Virus record (IMG/VR): IMGVR_UViG_3300043436_003052
Location: 1-23,764 of that record
Length of the DNA stretch: 23,764 nucleotides
Source of the DNA: a virus
Strand: one strand, 5' to 3'
The notes below the pieces were generated by a model. The model was not told where the DNA came from. It was given only the letters and a program-made list of their open reading frames with translations, and searched no databases. Numbering within the stretch: the stretch's first letter is position 1; each line of letters opens with the position of its first letter. Made by a program: the position numbers and the translations under genes. Positions 2,276 through 15,699 of this stretch are shown here, piece by piece.

Positions 2276-4402
2276 GTGGAAAATATTCAATTCGATTACG
2301 ATTTTGCAGGTCCTGCTGACTATGCCAAAATGTATCGCCAACTGGGCATTCAGGTCGTTCCGGCCAAGATGCCCCGCGAAGACAAGGCGTGGAAGCGCCC
2401 TGTCATCAAGTGGCGTGATTACGAAGATCACATTGCCGACGAAGGCACGTTCAACAATTGGTTTGGTGGGAGCGGTGAATTCCGCTCTCGCCCCAATATG
2501 GGAATTATCACAGGCGATGCGTCCGGTGGCATATTTGTCCTCGACATCGACCTGCACAACCATCCAAAGGCCAAGACGTGGCTGGATGACCTGATCGACA
2601 ACCATAACCGCAGCATGCCGATTAACGCGCCCACACAGCGCACTGGCGGCGGTGGCCTGCAATTGCTGTTCAAGGCCCCTGAAGGCTGGGTGTCGCCCAC
2701 CAACAAAACAAGCATGGGCGTGGACATTCGCGGTCAGGGTGGATTTGCCATGCTGCCGCCCAGCCAGCACGAAAGCGGTCATTCTTACGAATGGGTCAAG
2801 GGCTTTGAGCCATGGGCGATTGCAGTCCCAGAGGCTCCCATGTGGCTCATTGAGGCCATTGACGATCTGTTGGCGCAATACACCAAGGTCGAGCGCGGTG
2901 AGCGCACAGACAGCCCTGCGACAGCTACAGACGCCTTCGGGCAGATCGTGGATGGTCGCGAAGATTATATGACGCGCCTGATCTGGGCGCGGGTCGTGCA
3001 GATGTATCGCGACTGCCCGTTTATCAGCGATGCTGAGGCGGAGCGTGAAATGCGCGATGCATTCACGAAATACGACCAGAACGTCAAAAGCAGATTATTC
3101 GAGCCCGGAACACCAAACCACATCCTGTTGGAGCGCGAAGGGCGCGGTGCGTCCCTGTTCTTCCAGAAATGGAATATTGCCATGGGGCAATGGGACGGTC
3201 GCGTAAAGGAAGCGGCGGCTGTCCCCGCACCAGAAAAAAAGCCCGATACGGCTTTTCAGGAGCCGACAGGCGATGGCGGTGATGGCGCGCACACCTTAAC
3301 GCAGGCCGACATCGACGTTTACGAACGGTTGAGCATAAAGGACATCAAGGCGCTGCCCGATCCGAAGTATCTGGTCGAGGGCATCGTGATCGAAAATTCG
3401 CTGATGTTTATCTATGGGCCTCCGGGATGTGGCAAGACGTTCATCAGCCTTGGCATGGCGCTGTCCATTGCCGCTGGCTTGGACGAATGGTGGGGCCGCA
3501 AGATCAACAAGCATGGCCCCGTTGTGCTTTTGTCGAGCGAAGGTGTCGCGGATCTTAAATTCCGCATCATGGCGTGGGAAAAGGAAACGGGCATCAGCGT
3601 CGATGATATTCCGTTTTACCTGATCCGCCAGACCATCAACTTTATGGCCGAAGCGGACGTTGATAAGCTTCTGCGCACGGTGCTGGACATCACTAACCAG
3701 CTTGGGGAGCCTCCGGTCCTGATCAACGTCGATACGGTCAGCCGTGTGCTTCCCGGAGCGGACGAAAACCTCCAGAAGGATATGACGCTGTTTATATCCG
3801 CCTGTGACCGCGTCAGGGAGGTGTTTGGATCGACTGTGGCTGGTGTCCACCACACAAGCCGGAATGGCAACCTGCGTGGCTCTACGGTCTTTGACGGGGC
3901 TGGTGACGCTCTGCTGTCTATCACCCGCGAAGAGGGTGCGGACATTGGCGAGATGCTGGCCAAGAAGATTAAGTCTGCACCGGACGGCTGGAAGCAGAAT
4001 TTCCGCCTGAAGAAGATTGAGATCGGGGACATCAAAGGCTCGACCAGCCTGTATGCGGAGCCAACAGACGAAAGCGCTGGGGAGGAAGCCAAGACAGACT
4101 GGCCATCAAAGCTTATATGTCAGGAGATACTATACGCCATGCAAGAGGCTTGGACATCCAAGCGCCCATGGTCGAACCATTATCATGCGAAGCGCGATGG
4201 TCGATATGCCGTCACGATAATCGCAAGCCGCTGGGGTGTCGCGCCCCAGACGGCGGAGCAGATGTTGGAGGCATGGCTGGTCAATGAGGTGATTGAAGTC
4301 AGCACCGCTGACTACAAGACCAAGACCCGTGGCCTGAAGGTCCTGCGCACCCTTTATGACGAAGCAGCACCGCCAGCCAACGCAAATTGGTATGACGATT
4401 AA
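2276..4402 (+). CDS. Bifunctional primase-polymerase / RepA-type helicase
   Basis: A 708-residue replication protein with two parts. The N-terminal ~220 residues look like a prim-pol (AEP) domain: GIFVLDIDLHN carries the metal-binding Asp90/Asp92 pair, followed by RTGGGGLQLLFKAP and VDIRGQGGFAMLPPS, typical of this family. Residues ~350-590 form a RecA-like AAA_25/RepA-type ATPase with Walker A GPPGCGKT (381-388) and Walker B LINVDTVSR (Asp486). The C-terminal ~100 residues may hold a winged-helix-like segment. The fusion would synthesise primers and unwind DNA at phage forks. The GTG start at 2276 is supported by AGGGG at 2265-2269. No DNA polymerase gene lies in the window, so the main replicase is probably elsewhere or host-supplied. 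Confidence 0.88.
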   Translation: MENIQFDYDFAGPADYAKMYRQLGIQVVPAKMPREDKAWKRPVIKWRDYEDHIADEGTFNNWFGGSGEFRSRPNMGIITGDASGGIFVLDIDLHNHPKAKTWLDDLIDNHNRSMPINAPTQRTGGGGLQLLFKAPEGWVSPTNKTSMGVDIRGQGGFAMLPPSQHESGHSYEWVKGFEPWAIAVPEAPMWLIEAIDDLLAQYTKVERGERTDSPATATDAFGQIVDGREDYMTRLIWARVVQMYRDCPFISDAEAEREMRDAFTKYDQNVKSRLFEPGTPNHILLEREGRGASLFFQKWNIAMGQWDGRVKEAAAVPAPEKKPDTAFQEPTGDGGDGAHTLTQADIDVYERLSIKDIKALPDPKYLVEGIVIENSLMFIYGPPGCGKTFISLGMALSIAAGLDEWWGRKINKHGPVVLLSSEGVADLKFRIMAWEKETGISVDDIPFYLIRQTINFMAEADVDKLLRTVLDITNQLGEPPVLINVDTVSRVLPGADENLQKDMTLFISACDRVREVFGSTVAGVHHTSRNGNLRGSTVFDGAGDALLSITREEGADIGEMLAKKIKSAPDGWKQNFRLKKIEIGDIKGSTSLYAEPTDESAGEEAKTDWPSKLICQEILYAMQEAWTSKRPWSNHYHAKRDGRYAVTIIASRWGVAPQTAEQMLEAWLVNEVIEVSTADYKTKTRGLKVLRTLYDEAAPPANANWYDD

Positions 4403-5388: not shown

Positions 5389-5796
5389 ATGGACGATACT
5401 CAGGCAACGGCGCTGAATTTGGCCGTTCAAATTCACCTTGGGCGCAGGCAAAATAAGCGATTATGCCCAAATTCCCTGCTACAGCCATTCCTTTGGGAGG
5501 CTCTGTGCCTTGCCATTGAGCAGACCGATGCATTTAAGCAAGAAATGAGCGATGTGCTGGAGCAGGCCGTCCCGTTTTTTGGCAGACCATCCAAAGGTCC
5601 GCGCTGGAAAATGGCAAAGACCCTTTCCGGTTACATCATCCCCAAGCCAGAACCCGATCCAATAACGGAAATGGAGAAGGTGTGGAGCGAATTGTCCGAA
5701 GGTGGCTACGATCTACATGATTTTCGCGCCGCACTGGAAGCCCGTGGGCTGGAGATACGGGAGAAGAGCGATGACCCTGCGCCAATTCCTGCATGA
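5389..5796 (+). CDS. Hypothetical protein (135 aa)
   Basis: First gene after promoter copy 2, with the ribosome binding site AAGGAGCAA. The N-terminal half looks helical (ATALNLAVQIHLGRRQNK), the middle carries a GRPSKGPRWKMAKTLSGYI segment, and the C-terminal half is acidic and helical (MEKVWSELSEGGYDLHDF). No domain is recognised. The 3' end overlaps a possible 25-aa gene in another frame. Function is unknown. Confidence 0.6.
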   Translation: MDDTQATALNLAVQIHLGRRQNKRLCPNSLLQPFLWEALCLAIEQTDAFKQEMSDVLEQAVPFFGRPSKGPRWKMAKTLSGYIIPKPEPDPITEMEKVWSELSEGGYDLHDFRAALEARGLEIREKSDDPAPIPA

Positions 5797-5848
5797 TAAT
5801 TTCGGCTGGGATATTTATGAATGGGCAGATGATGATATTCGATTTTAA
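5771..5848 (+). CDS. 25-aa small protein overlapping the preceding gene
   Basis: ATG at 5771 follows GGGAGAAGAGCG (5759-5770), an acceptable ribosome binding site inside the end of the preceding gene. It encodes MTLRQFLHDNFGWDIYEWAD plus five residues and stops at TAA 5846-5848, where the next gene's AAGGAGCAA ribosome binding site begins. The peptide has a protein-like mix of aromatic and acidic residues. Support is positional only. Confidence 0.35.
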   Translation: MTLRQFLHDNFGWDIYEWADDDIRF

Positions 5849-5859
5849 AGGAGCAAAAA

Positions 5860-6183
5860 ATGAAGGAAGTAAGGGGAAGAACGCAGGCGGATTATGACAT
5901 TATCCGCATGTGCAAATATATCACGGACGACAGGTTCATTGCCTCATATTTGGGCGCGGATCTGAAGCGCGTCGTTTATCTGCGTGAGCAAATGCTGAAG
6001 CTTGAGGCAAAACGGGCGAAAGCGGAAAAGCATCGCGACTTTCAGATCACATGGAACAATGACGCGGAGCGCAAGGCGGCTATCGATGCCAAGAACGGAT
6101 CGGCCAAGCTGCTGAAGGCGCTGGTGTCGTTTTCCGTAAACAGGCAGGCGCGGATCAATGAGGGGCAGCAGCCATGCAAATAA
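5860..6183 (+). CDS. Hypothetical protein (107 aa)
   Basis: The ribosome binding site AAGGAGCAA (5848-5856) precedes the ATG. The N-terminal half may contain a helix-turn-helix-like segment (ADYDIIRMCKYITDDRFIAS then YLGADLKRVVYLREQ), as in small phage DNA-binding proteins, followed by a long basic helix (LEAKRAKAEKHRD). The assignment is tentative and the function unknown. The following 51-aa gene starts inside its last codons, suggesting coupling. Confidence 0.55.
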   Translation: MKEVRGRTQADYDIIRMCKYITDDRFIASYLGADLKRVVYLREQMLKLEAKRAKAEKHRDFQITWNNDAERKAAIDAKNGSAKLLKALVSFSVNRQARINEGQQPCK

Positions 6184-6329
6184 AGGCGGTAGGCGCACTC
6201 ATGAAGGCAGGCAATTTCACCTTCAAGGAGGCTGCCCAGATCATGGCCAAGCTGGATGCGGATGGGCTGGCGATATACAAAAAGAAGACGCCCAAGCTAA
6301 CCCGCGCAACGATCCATAAGCCATCGTAA
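6174..6329 (+). CDS. Small basic protein (51 aa)
   Basis: The ATG at 6174 overlaps the end of the preceding gene (stop at 6183), and GGGGCAGCAG upstream gives a weak ribosome binding site. The sequence MQIKAVGALMKAGNFTFKEA followed by a Lys-rich tail (YKKKTPKLTRATIHKPS) is basic and could bind nucleic acid. It is the last gene before the 6334-6549 repeat array. No family is recognised. Confidence 0.45.
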   Translation: MQIKAVGALMKAGNFTFKEAAQIMAKLDADGLAIYKKKTPKLTRATIHKPS

Positions 6330-6333
6330 TGTT

Positions 6334-6549
6334 GGCGGAGGTAAGCAAAATCTACTTCCGCCAAATGGCGGAGGTAACCACAAATCTACTTCCGCTTACT
6401 TCCGCCTTTGGCGGTTTTCTGCGGCGGACGTAGGCGGAGGTAAGTGGCGGAGGTAAATTGGCGGAGGTAAGCCAAAGCCAAAAGCATTTACTTCCGCTTT
6501 TCAAGGATTCCGTAGGCGGAGGTAGGCGGAAGTAAATTTGGCGGAAGTA
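6334..6549. repeat. Array of 13 copies of GGCGGARGTA (iteron-like)
   Basis: Forward copies start at 6334, 6367, 6423 (GGCGGACGTA), 6433, 6446, 6460, 6515, 6525 and 6540. Reverse copies (TACTTCCGCC or TACTTCCGCT) start at 6353, 6387, 6397 and 6489. Three pairs abut exactly at 10-bp spacing: 6387/6397, 6423/6433 and 6515/6525. Several forward/reverse neighbours (6334/6353, 6367/6387, 6460/6489) can also pair as stem-loops in RNA or single-stranded DNA. Dense short repeats in both orientations in a noncoding gap beside replication genes fit an iteron-type origin or a multi-site regulator. Confidence 0.8.
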
Positions 6550-6572
6550 CCCTGATACTAAACGTATACAGA

Positions 6573-6597
6573 GGGTGGGCGTATACGCCATACACCC
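6573..6597. repeat. Nested inverted repeat with GGCGTATACGCC core
   Basis: A perfect 12-bp palindrome GGCGTATACGCC (6578-6589) is flanked by GGGTG (6573-6577) and CACCC (6593-6597). A second GTATAC lies just upstream at 6563-6568. It sits 24 bp after the last unit of the repeat array and may be a protein-binding site of the same origin or control region. Confidence 0.55.
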
Positions 6598-6744
6598 TTG
6601 CGCGGAGCGGGTTACAGGGTGGTTGGGAATATGCGGAAGCTTCCCCCAACGCGGAAGGTCGCCTGTGGCTCCCATCCGCTCTCCCGCTGGTCGTGGGTGA
6701 TGCATCCGCTTGCGATATGGGAAACAGGTTGAAGGGAGGTTTGC

Positions 6745-7134
6745 ATGGCGAGACGTATGCCGAATGTAGGGGAGGTCGGGATGCGATATGGCAAGAGAAA
6801 CTATTTGCGGACGCAGAGGCACCTCTTGATGGCCAAACGGGGAAAATGGCATCTGGTCATTTGTCCCGATAAATGCATGGCCGGATGGATTAATGTGAAG
6901 GTGCATTTGGACCAGACGGCCAGCAAGAATGTTTTCGAGGTCGGGATATTCAATGGGAAGGCATCGCCCAAGGCAGATGTGAAATTGCTCAATGAGCATC
7001 ACCCGTCGATCATGGCATGGGTGATGGATAGGGTGGCGGCATATGTCGATGGCAAGGTCACCCTGAAGGCAGAGGTCGGGACGCCTGTGGTCTACACAAA
7101 GGAACGGCGCTGGAAGATTTTATCGAAGGGATGA
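6745..7134 (+). CDS. Basic hypothetical protein (129 aa)
   Basis: GGGAGG (6735-6740) precedes the ATG. The protein starts with a very basic segment (MARRMPNVGEVGMRYGKRNY) and remains Lys/Arg-rich, including GKWHLVICPDKC and a C-terminal KERRWKILSKG, so nucleic-acid binding is plausible. No family is recognised. It is the first gene after the 13-copy repeat array and pairs with the DDDIPF-tailed protein four bases downstream, so it is a candidate array-binding or initiator protein. That role is inferred from position and charge only. The 216-residue antisense frame over this region is not supported. Confidence 0.6.
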   Translation: MARRMPNVGEVGMRYGKRNYLRTQRHLLMAKRGKWHLVICPDKCMAGWINVKVHLDQTASKNVFEVGIFNGKASPKADVKLLNEHHPSIMAWVMDRVAAYVDGKVTLKAEVGTPVVYTKERRWKILSKG

Positions 7135-7137
7135 TTT

Positions 7138-7773
7138 ATGGCAAAGCCCGGCACAAAGAAATATAAACAGGAAAATGATTGGCGCACGATCCTGCCCAAA
7201 GAGCGCAGGCGTGACAGTGCCCCATGGCAGAAAACATACGGCACATATGTCACCGGACAGGCATGGGTGGATGAGGTGACGCTGTGCGCAGAGCGCATGG
7301 AACACAAATGGGGTGCAGGCCGATTGCGGTTGATGGTCGGCCCTGAATTGCGGGATAAGTTTGACCGCCAAAGGTATATGTTCAATCAGGCGCTTTACCA
7401 TGGCAGTCTGGAAGACGTCAGGGTGCAGTGTAAGCGCATGATCACTGGCTGGGGTGCTTTGGATAGGGCCGCAGACGAAATGGGCTTAGAAAGGCTCCCT
7501 GTGAATGCATGGGAGGTGTCTGGGGAGGCAGGGACGGTGCATGTGATCGTCCGGACGCTGGATGATGCCATCGACTATCGCAAGGGCCGTCAGAACGTCT
7601 GCATATACACGCTTGATGAAATTGCGGTCCTGTTGGACGCACAGGGGCTGCTGGGAGCCGCTAAGGCTGCATTTCCGGATGCGGAGGTGATAATGGTGCA
7701 GCGAAGTGTCGGGGACGCTCTGGATGACGTTGAAAGCACCCAGAACGACCTTGACGACGATATTCCGTTTTAG
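7138..7773 (+). CDS. Phage protein with SSB-like C-terminal tip (211 aa)
   Basis: A 211-residue protein whose final residues are DLDDDIPF, nearly the same as the conserved tip of bacterial single-stranded DNA-binding protein (FDDDIPF), which docks onto replication and repair partners. An acidic linker precedes it (GDALDDVESTQNDLDDD). The body does not look like the usual SSB OB fold: it begins MAKPGTKKYKQENDW, has a helical middle (VGPELRDKFDRQRYMFNQA, then RMITGWGALDRAADEMG) and a C-terminal part with TVHVIVRTLDDA. Similar bodies occur in phages of Alphaproteobacteria, from memory, as hypothetical proteins. It may be an unusual ssDNA-binding protein or a tip mimic recruiting host SSB partners. 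It lies four bases after the 6745 gene. Confidence 0.72.
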   Translation: MAKPGTKKYKQENDWRTILPKERRRDSAPWQKTYGTYVTGQAWVDEVTLCAERMEHKWGAGRLRLMVGPELRDKFDRQRYMFNQALYHGSLEDVRVQCKRMITGWGALDRAADEMGLERLPVNAWEVSGEAGTVHVIVRTLDDAIDYRKGRQNVCIYTLDEIAVLLDAQGLLGAAKAAFPDAEVIMVQRSVGDALDDVESTQNDLDDDIPF

Positions 7774-13387: not shown

Positions 13388-15699
13388 TGGCAACGCAACC
13401 CGGCCTCGCTCCAATGAATATTCGTCAACCCGCTCCTGATGAGCCGGGTGCGATTGACACGTCACCAATCCAGATCGACTTTGCCGACGAAGGCGGAGAC
13501 AATCCTGAGACAGATGAAAACGGGAATATCATTTCCATTGAGCATGAAGATGGCTCAATCACTGTTTCGCTCGACGGAAACCCGCTTGAGACTGCTGAAA
13601 ATGGCGACGACGGCGAATGGTTTGGCAATTTGGTCGATAGGATCGACGCAGACGAACTAAACACCATTTCCGGCGAACTGTTTCGCGGTATCGATGACGA
13701 TTTGCTGTCCCGCAAGGACTGGATTGAGACACGGGCGCAGGGAATTAAGCTTCTTGGCTTGAAAATTGAATTGCCGGGGCTGTCAGGGGCCGCTGATGGC
13801 GCGCCTGTCGAAGGCATGTCCAAAGTTCGCCACCCATTGCTGCTTGAAGCCGTGCTGCGCTTCCAAGCCAACTCGCGGTCGGAACTTTTGCCAACAGATG
13901 GACCTGTTAAGATCCGCAATGACGATAATAACGCGACATTGCAGGAAGATCAGATCGCAAATGCGCTTGAGCGCGACCTAAACCACTATCTAACATCGAC
14001 GGCGTCGGAATATTATCCCGATACCGACCGCATGCTGCTCATGCTTGGCTTTGGTGGCACGTCGTTCAAGAAAGTTTACTACTGCCCACTGCGCAACCGC
14101 CCAGTTTCGGAGACTGTGGACGCTGATGACCTGATCGTGAGCAACGACGCAACGGATTTGTCCAATGCGCGCCGCATTACGCACCGGATCATGATGCGCC
14201 CATCGATTGTGAAGCGCATGCAAATCCTTGGCGTCTATCGCGACGTTGATCTGGGCACCCCAAGCATGCGCCGCCTTGATCCATTGCAGCGCGAAGAGCG
14301 TGACCAGCAGGGTATCTCGACTGAGTCCACCAATCCGCTGGATCGCGACCGCGAGATTTACGAATGCTATTGCGAATTGGACATCAAGGGCTTTGAGCAT
14401 AAGCACAAGGGCAAAGTATCTGGGCTTGAGATTCCATACCGCGTGACCATTGACGTTTCCTCAAAGGAAATCCTGTCGATTGTCCGTAACTTTGACGAAG
14501 ATACGGCAGACCTGCCAGTCGCGAAGAAAAACTTTGTTAAGTTTACGTTCGTACCGGGCCTTGGCTTTTACGACATTGGCCTTTTGCACATTCTGGGCAA
14601 CACCACCAACGCCATCACGGCTGCATGGCGTGAGTTGCTGGATGCGGGCATGTATTCCAACTTCCCCGGCTTCCTGATGGCTGACACCGGGGCACGGCAG
14701 AACACCAACATCTTCCGCGTTCCTCCCGGCGGCGGTGCGCTGATTAAGACTGGCGGCATGCCAATTAGCCAAGCTGTTATGCCATTGCCGTACCAGCCGC
14801 CTTCGCAGGCGCTGATGCAGCTTGTTGGCGACATGGCGCAGACCGGCATGCGTATTGGTGGCACATCTGAGCAGCAGGTCGGTGAAGGTCGCGCTGACGC
14901 TCCTGTGGGCACCACGCTTGCGATGATTGAGCAGGCCACCAAAGTCATGAACGCTGTCCACAAGCGCCTTCACTCCGCTCAGGCTGAAGAATTCCGCTTG
15001 CTGTGCGACCGCTTCCGCGAACACCCAGAAAGCTTCTGGCAGCGCAACTCAAAGCCGACCATGCCATGGGATCAGGCAACTTTCATTCAGGCGCTGAATG
15101 ACTTTGACCTGACGCCTCAGGCTGACCCCAACACGGCGTCGCAGGGCCAGCGCATCATGAAGATCACTGCCCTGAAGCAGCTTCAGCAGGCAAACCCATC
15201 GATGTACGATCCAATCGCCATCGACGTTGCTGCGTTGCAGGCTATCGGCTGGTCCAACCCATCGCAGTTCATGGCACCGCCAAATGCTCAAGCATCGCCG
15301 CCACCTGAATTGTTGCAGGCTCAGGCTAAGATGAAGACTGACGAAATGACTGCCAATGCGCGCATGATGGAAGCGCAGGCACGGGTTGCTGAAACGCAAG
15401 CCAAAATCCAGTCCGGTGCCTTTGCGCCTAAGCAGGATGCACCAGAAATGGGTCAGGCAGCGCTCAACACCGCGCAGGCGGATTTGATTAATGCCGAAAC
15501 CAAGCGCAGCGAGATTGGCGTCCGCCATCAAGAGCGCATGGTTGAAGACCAGAACCGCGATCTGGACCGCCAGAGCCGTGAGCGCGTTGCCATGTTGCAG
15601 CTTGCCCGCGACCTTGTGATGCATCCGGAGCAGGCTGAGGCTGTCGAGCCATTGGCAGGCCCGTCAGAGCGCAAATTTAATAAGGATGAGGGCGAATGA
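13387..15699 (+). CDS. Portal protein
   Basis: A 770-residue head-tail connector. After an acidic N-terminal tail (about residues 1-80) come segments typical of large P22-like portals of marine phages: VRHPLLLEAVLRFQANSRSE, GPVKIRND, MLLMLGFGGTSFKKVYYCPL, then the conserved FLPGLGFYDIGLLHILGNTT-like region (here FVPGLGFYDIGLLHILGN) and a Met/Ala/Gln-rich helical C terminus, which forms the barrel or crown. It would form the dodecameric ring through which DNA enters. It follows terL as expected, starts by overlap with the 70-aa gene, and its stop overlaps the next start (ATGA). Confidence 0.85.
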   Translation: MATQPGLAPMNIRQPAPDEPGAIDTSPIQIDFADEGGDNPETDENGNIISIEHEDGSITVSLDGNPLETAENGDDGEWFGNLVDRIDADELNTISGELFRGIDDDLLSRKDWIETRAQGIKLLGLKIELPGLSGAADGAPVEGMSKVRHPLLLEAVLRFQANSRSELLPTDGPVKIRNDDNNATLQEDQIANALERDLNHYLTSTASEYYPDTDRMLLMLGFGGTSFKKVYYCPLRNRPVSETVDADDLIVSNDATDLSNARRITHRIMMRPSIVKRMQILGVYRDVDLGTPSMRRLDPLQREERDQQGISTESTNPLDRDREIYECYCELDIKGFEHKHKGKVSGLEIPYRVTIDVSSKEILSIVRNFDEDTADLPVAKKNFVKFTFVPGLGFYDIGLLHILGNTTNAITAAWRELLDAGMYSNFPGFLMADTGARQNTNIFRVPPGGGALIKTGGMPISQAVMPLPYQPPSQALMQLVGDMAQTGMRIGGTSEQQVGEGRADAPVGTTLAMIEQATKVMNAVHKRLHSAQAEEFRLLCDRFREHPESFWQRNSKPTMPWDQATFIQALNDFDLTPQADPNTASQGQRIMKITALKQLQQANPSMYDPIAIDVAALQAIGWSNPSQFMAPPNAQASPPPELLQAQAKMKTDEMTANARMMEAQARVAETQAKIQSGAFAPKQDAPEMGQAALNTAQADLINAETKRSEIGVRHQERMVEDQNRDLDRQSRERVAMLQLARDLVMHPEQAEAVEPLAGPSERKFNKDEGE

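Follow-up and report, generated by a model that had tools for sequence, protein, structure and literature searches.

The question raised by this locus is what function is served by the cluster of short repeats at positions 6334 to 6549 of the window, by which we mean the whole stretch of 23,764 nucleotides that was analysed. The repeats were recounted, and the total of nine forward and four reverse copies given by an earlier, sequence-only reading was reproduced. Ten of the thirteen copies of RGCGGANGTA are exact matches to GGCGGARGTA (eight forward and two reverse; expected 0.06, shuffle maximum 2), and the other three, at 6387 (reverse), 6423 (forward) and 6489 (reverse), were found when one mismatch was allowed. 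The sites are as follows.

6334..6549, both strands: iteron array, 13 copies of RGCGGANGTA
6334..6343, plus strand: iteron 1, exact
6353..6362, minus strand: iteron 2, exact
6367..6376, plus strand: iteron 3, exact
6387..6396, minus strand: iteron 4, one mismatch
6397..6406, minus strand: iteron 5, exact
6423..6432, plus strand: iteron 6, one mismatch
6433..6442, plus strand: iteron 7, exact
6446..6455, plus strand: iteron 8, exact
6460..6469, plus strand: iteron 9, exact
6489..6498, minus strand: iteron 10, one mismatch
6515..6524, plus strand: iteron 11, exact
6525..6534, plus strand: iteron 12, exact
6540..6549, plus strand: iteron 13, exact

One-mismatch matches in the rest of the window were all single and scattered. 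The description of the array as noncoding, with some copies abutting, also held: the segment is intergenic (a small ORF ends at 6329, and the next ORF starts at 6745), and three iteron pairs abut exactly (6387/6397, 6423/6433 and 6515/6525). A minus-strand ORF (6352-7002) runs across the array and was treated as mechanical because it overlaps the conserved 6745 gene. Neighbouring iterons on the same strand were mostly spaced 9-13 bp apart, about one helical turn. No DnaA boxes were found near the array, the sole match being at 14582, and blastn of positions 5700-7200 against named phages gave no match. The placement of the array was confirmed in part: the 6745 and SSB-tip genes do lie downstream, but the helicase gene does not adjoin it, being separated from it in the window by small genes that span about 1.9 kb. 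The genes that bear on the question are listed below.

2276..4402, plus strand: initiator candidate of 708 aa, with Prim-Pol (20-190), RepA/AAA_25 (357-531) and a C-terminal winged helix
4106..4351 (about residues 611-692), plus strand: winged helix, the proposed iteron reader, from AlphaFold, fold matches and covariation
6745..7134, plus strand: array-adjacent protein family, fused to a helicase-like winged helix in about a dozen relatives, not here
7138..7773, plus strand: SSB-like acidic tip protein (DDDIPF), homologues of which follow the array in many members of the family

The 708-aa protein matched the Pfam families Prim-Pol (2.7e-22) and AAA_25 (9.3e-30), and a profile built from 24 AAA domains retrieved RSF1010 RepA (1g8y, E 3.3e-25) as by far the best solved relative. 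The C-terminal domain was predicted by AlphaFold with a pLDDT of 94-97, and its nearest solved folds were winged-helix domains; the winged-helix profile had no match among PDB sequences. Directly upstream of the helicase gene, the window also encodes a RuvC-like Holliday junction resolvase (1781-2251; phrog_1770, E 4.6e-38).

Relatives were collected as 11 contigs encoding the 6745 protein and 80 loci encoding the helicase. The comparison with related phages that the sequence-only reading had proposed showed that the array is kept, while copy number and orientation shift. It was present in the close relatives containing the region, among which the order and orientation of sites differed through gains, losses and inversions (+-+--++++-+++ in the window, +--+---+++--++ in L007), and the core and the flank just 3' of the array stayed fixed. 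Sites that are gained, lost and inverted around a fixed core behave like protein binding sites; a folded RNA would be disrupted by such changes. The mixed orientation singled out earlier is present in the window but depends on lineage, differing between close relatives and being absent in relatives such as L044 and L084.

The association with the helicase extends well beyond the close relatives. In phages sharing only the helicase family (about 50% identity, some 21-30%), arrays of core CGGARGT lay 3' of the helicase gene. When the helicase loci were searched without bias for repeated 8-mers, the same core was recovered (ACCTCCGC, CTTCCGCA and similar), and de novo motif building gave NCGGARGT in most loci, again 3' of the gene. 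Of the 36 loci that were selected by helicase and extend at least 3.6 kb downstream, 32 carried an array, mostly of core CGGARGT; the stretch examined contained none in L020, L033, L055 and L087, and in L055 a single close pair of sites was found just past its end. The array started 4-29 bp past the helicase stop codon in many loci, including Rhizobium phage RHph_N65 (GGCGGAGAT), EBPR siphovirus 5 (GGCGGAAGTA) and Caenibius sp. WL plasmid p1 (TTGCGGAAGTC), and small genes intervened in others. Ten long virus records were searched, nine of which matched with sites in one place each, and the reversed control pattern never matched. With the more distant RepA-type helicases of actinophages (BFK20, Gustav and Wanda) and of CRP-406, no array was seen in the gaps examined.

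The same association was reached from the opposite direction by a scan for the motif only in 2.9 million viral contigs, with counts that apply among the matches listed. At least 25 irregularly spaced arrays with six or more copies were found; 18 of the 25 among the matches listed have a helicase-family gene, and some of these helicases, again among the matches listed, are just 21-30% identical to that of the window. The remaining 7 of the 25 listed were rejected as 7-nt tandems, contig-edge pieces or tandem, coding-like repeats. Because loci found by the motif are biased to CGGARGT, motif conservation is to be judged from the helicase-selected loci alone.

If the winged helix reads the iterons, the two should vary together. 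Across 43 arrays, iteron distance was related to winged-helix distance with the AAA domain held constant (partial r 0.30, permutation p 0.001) and with the Prim-Pol domain held constant (partial r 0.26, p 0.001), while the reverse test (AAA given the winged helix) gave -0.21, and the AAA and Prim-Pol domains showed no such relation to the iterons; the covariation is modest and correlational, and it controls for sequence relatedness only in part. In two genomes whose helicase C-terminus was unmatched by the winged-helix profile, the same layout was found with another word, which is GGTACA for Idiomarinaceae phage 1N2-2 and CGCAACA for a Methylobacterium currus plasmid. The position is therefore retained, and it is the word that changes with the DNA-binding domain. 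In the isolated phage 1N2-2, the array (L233 4629-4836, both orientations) starts about 10 bp after the primase-helicase stop and has a CCTATATAGG dyad in its 3' part, and this segment is a candidate origin of that phage. The array of the M. currus plasmid (L236 4582-4692, both orientations) comes right after an AAA ATPase gene, which is preceded by a separate TOPRIM primase gene.

The DNA just 3' of the array contains three potential stem-loops.

6550..6574, no strand assigned: dyad/stem-loop I, CCCTGATACTAAACGTATACAGAGG, directly 3' of the array and nearly invariant in 7 relatives
6575..6599, no strand assigned: stem-loop II, with compensatory changes
6628..6719, no strand assigned: branched stem-loop III, with compensatory changes

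The stem covariation score in 7 close relatives was above all 500 shuffles and all slid controls. Dyads like stem-loop I also follow the array in L044, L084, L159 and L163, and over 39 arrays the first 60 bases of the flank folded better than coding controls (mean z -1.3 vs -0.1). Stem-loop III is a possible priming (ssi-like) structure. Within the array, an AT-rich unwinding element was looked for: TTGAAATCATT spacers occur in many relatives, and the array of the window itself is 52% GC, not AT-rich. The spacers of many lineages share CATTGAAATCATT or ATTGAAATCATT words, and 7-mers of CATTGAAATCATT occurred in up to 18 of 38 loci, which are partly related, vs a shuffle maximum of 7.

The analysis itself established the conserved array and its association with the helicase family, predicted the winged helix, and showed that this domain covaries with the iterons and that the stem-loops covary. 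The data suggest that positions 6334-6549, together with the 3' flank to about 6719, are probably the replication origin of this phage, an origin of iteron type bound by the helicase's own winged helix. As in other iteron-type origins, short specific repeats are clustered in noncoding DNA, they lie near an initiator gene at one locus per genome (4-29 bp away in relatives, 1.9 kb in the window), and the candidate cognate initiator carries a predicted DNA-binding domain that covaries with them. The iteron-origin reading proposed from the sequence alone is supported in that core, place and single-locus occurrence are conserved across the helicase family. The change of GC skew suggested as a check was not seen at the array in five long relatives, in which skew follows gene direction, and the absence of a switch is not decisive.

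We propose that initiation proceeds through binding, loading, melting and priming. The iterons would be bound by the Prim-Pol/RepA-type helicase through its C-terminal winged helix, and several copies of this protein would load on the array; the helicase would then open the duplex, and the fused primase would lay the first primers, perhaps at the stem-loops at 6550-6719.

The 6745 protein had been put forward as the array binder. Its family gave 50 ORF matches among the loci and was absent from some array carriers, and the helicase winged helix is the better candidate. Nevertheless, members in L043, L057, L062, L066, L069, L070, L072, L075, L081, L093 and L094 carry a winged helix related to that of the helicase (E down to 6e-19), which the window copy is without. 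A winged helix common to the helicase and the array-side protein suggests that both see the array, and the 6745-type protein may, judging from sequence, be a second array binder. The window's protein has a confidently predicted, beta-rich fold (pLDDT 91); it had no match in Pfam or NCBIfam and no convincing one in PHROGs or among solved folds (best Z 3.9).

Such a second binder also bears on another reading, that the array is a cluster of transcriptional operators through which the helicase, a 6745-type protein or another regulator controls 6745/7138 or the helicase operon. Autoregulation would fit the 6745-type proteins with a helicase-like winged helix in about a dozen relatives, but the family is missing from some array carriers. 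The array does lie in the gap just upstream of early genes; however, the feature that it constantly adjoins is not a promoter but the helicase gene's 3' end, and no promoter-like site was reported within the array or next to it. Up to 15 irregular copies over 200 bp would also be large for an operator. We therefore regard an operator as unlikely, and operator and origin roles may coexist.

It was also suggested that the transcribed array is an RNA element whose hairpins or Shine-Dalgarno-like words titrate ribosomes or a CsrA-type protein. The repeat unit does contain GGAGGT, but the words of other lineages (CGGAAGT, GGAGAT, GGATAA, GGTACA and CGCAACA) break the Shine-Dalgarno likeness. Similarly, shuffles fold far less well than the array of the window (z -9.4), but RNA structure is absent from the all-direct L044 array (z 0.19), and z was above -2 in 19 of 39 arrays. 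In Rfam, nothing matched up to E 1. Since all-direct arrays do not fold, RNA structure was rejected as the array's conserved feature, and a titrating RNA appears very improbable. Partition and pac sites can take the form of repeats in a short gap, but a site of parS-like or packaging type, bound by some other protein of the phage, is highly implausible here: the genes with which the array associates are those of the helicase and the SSB-tip protein, not of ParB or terminase, and the motif-only scan leads to the helicase among the matches listed.

Returning to the iteron-type origin, one of the closest parallels is with RSF1010 (IncQ) oriV, where RepC is the iteron binder, RepA the helicase whose unwinding exposes ssi stem-loops, and RepB' the primase that acts on them (PMC4234260, PMC4538821). 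A RepA-type helicase, an archaeo-eukaryotic-type primase, iterons and stem-loops are common to both (PMC4234260, PMC4538821), and the assignment to RepA-type hexameric helicases follows from the 1g8y match by sequence alone. RSF1010 is a plasmid, whereas primase, helicase and DNA-binding domain are fused here in one phage protein, and no separate RepC was seen. Covarying stem-loops lie 3' of the array, with a putative priming role of ssi type.

Phage P4 has a second cis site, crr, besides ori, whereas the iterons occupied one place in the relatives searched. The alpha protein of P4 is like the present protein in combining primase, helicase and a winged helix, which in P4 binds origin repeats (PMC4234260); unlike it, alpha has a TOPRIM primase, another helicase family and another iteron word, where Prim-Pol and AAA_25 are found here. 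In PICI/SaPI elements, the pri-rep origin directly follows the initiator gene at its 3' end and has iteron sets around an AT-rich stretch (PMC6092414). The present iterons likewise lie 3' of the helicase gene, but the initiator is of another type, and here short CGGARGT sites form one long block of up to 16, with several spacers, of TTGAAATCATT in many lineages. Finally, pRN1 ORF904 and Bordetella phage BIP-1 have a Prim-Pol protein with a C-terminal winged helix and an origin with a stem-loop directly 3' of the gene (PMC4234260), features that recur here; they differ in having an SF3 helicase and no iterons, in place of a RepA-type helicase with iterons.

More tentatively, the locus could belong to an undescribed, widespread replicon class whose single initiator protein, with Prim-Pol, RepA helicase and winged helix together, carries out RSF1010-style initiation at iterons and stem-loops next to the gene that encodes it. 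The orphan-fold 6745 family, which repeatedly carries a related winged helix, would then control copy number or timing by competing with the initiator for the iterons or by occupying them alongside it; we lean somewhat against this fuller scheme.

The kind of origin is already known. What is apparently new is the combination of a RepA-type helicase fused to Prim-Pol and a winged helix with CGGARGT iterons and a sister protein with a related winged helix, which was not found described in the literature searched. The recurrence of such arrays next to the primase-helicase in dozens of related phages is apparently undescribed as well; no description of them was found in the literature searched, which covers few subscription papers. 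Since the replication origins of most phages are unknown, a simple rule may be useful: where a gene for a RepA-type primase-helicase is present, its 3' side should be searched for arrayed copies of CGGARGT or of a lineage-specific word. The rule is open to direct test in Rhizobium phage RHph_N65, Idiomarinaceae phage 1N2-2 and Caenibius plasmid p1. The comparison brings the initiation schemes of RSF1010, P4 and PICI together, links a winged-helix domain with its DNA word and points to an undescribed protein family (6745) sharing the initiator's DNA-binding domain.

Other repeats were met during the searches. A different array (TTAACGGGTATT, both orientations) was present about 20-30 bp after the helicase stop in L038 (6146-6230), L039 and L049, and L039 has an additional CGGAGGT array about 2 kb beyond its TTAACGGGTATT array. 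Scan matches set aside comprised coding repeats spaced in threes, 7-nt tandems and TTTTGCGGAGGT repeats by Mu-like transposase genes. The last were seen beside the transposase gene in the Mu-like phages L111 (8982-9061), L123 (8210-8278) and L201 (4288-4356), where they are perhaps transposase end sites with a similar word.
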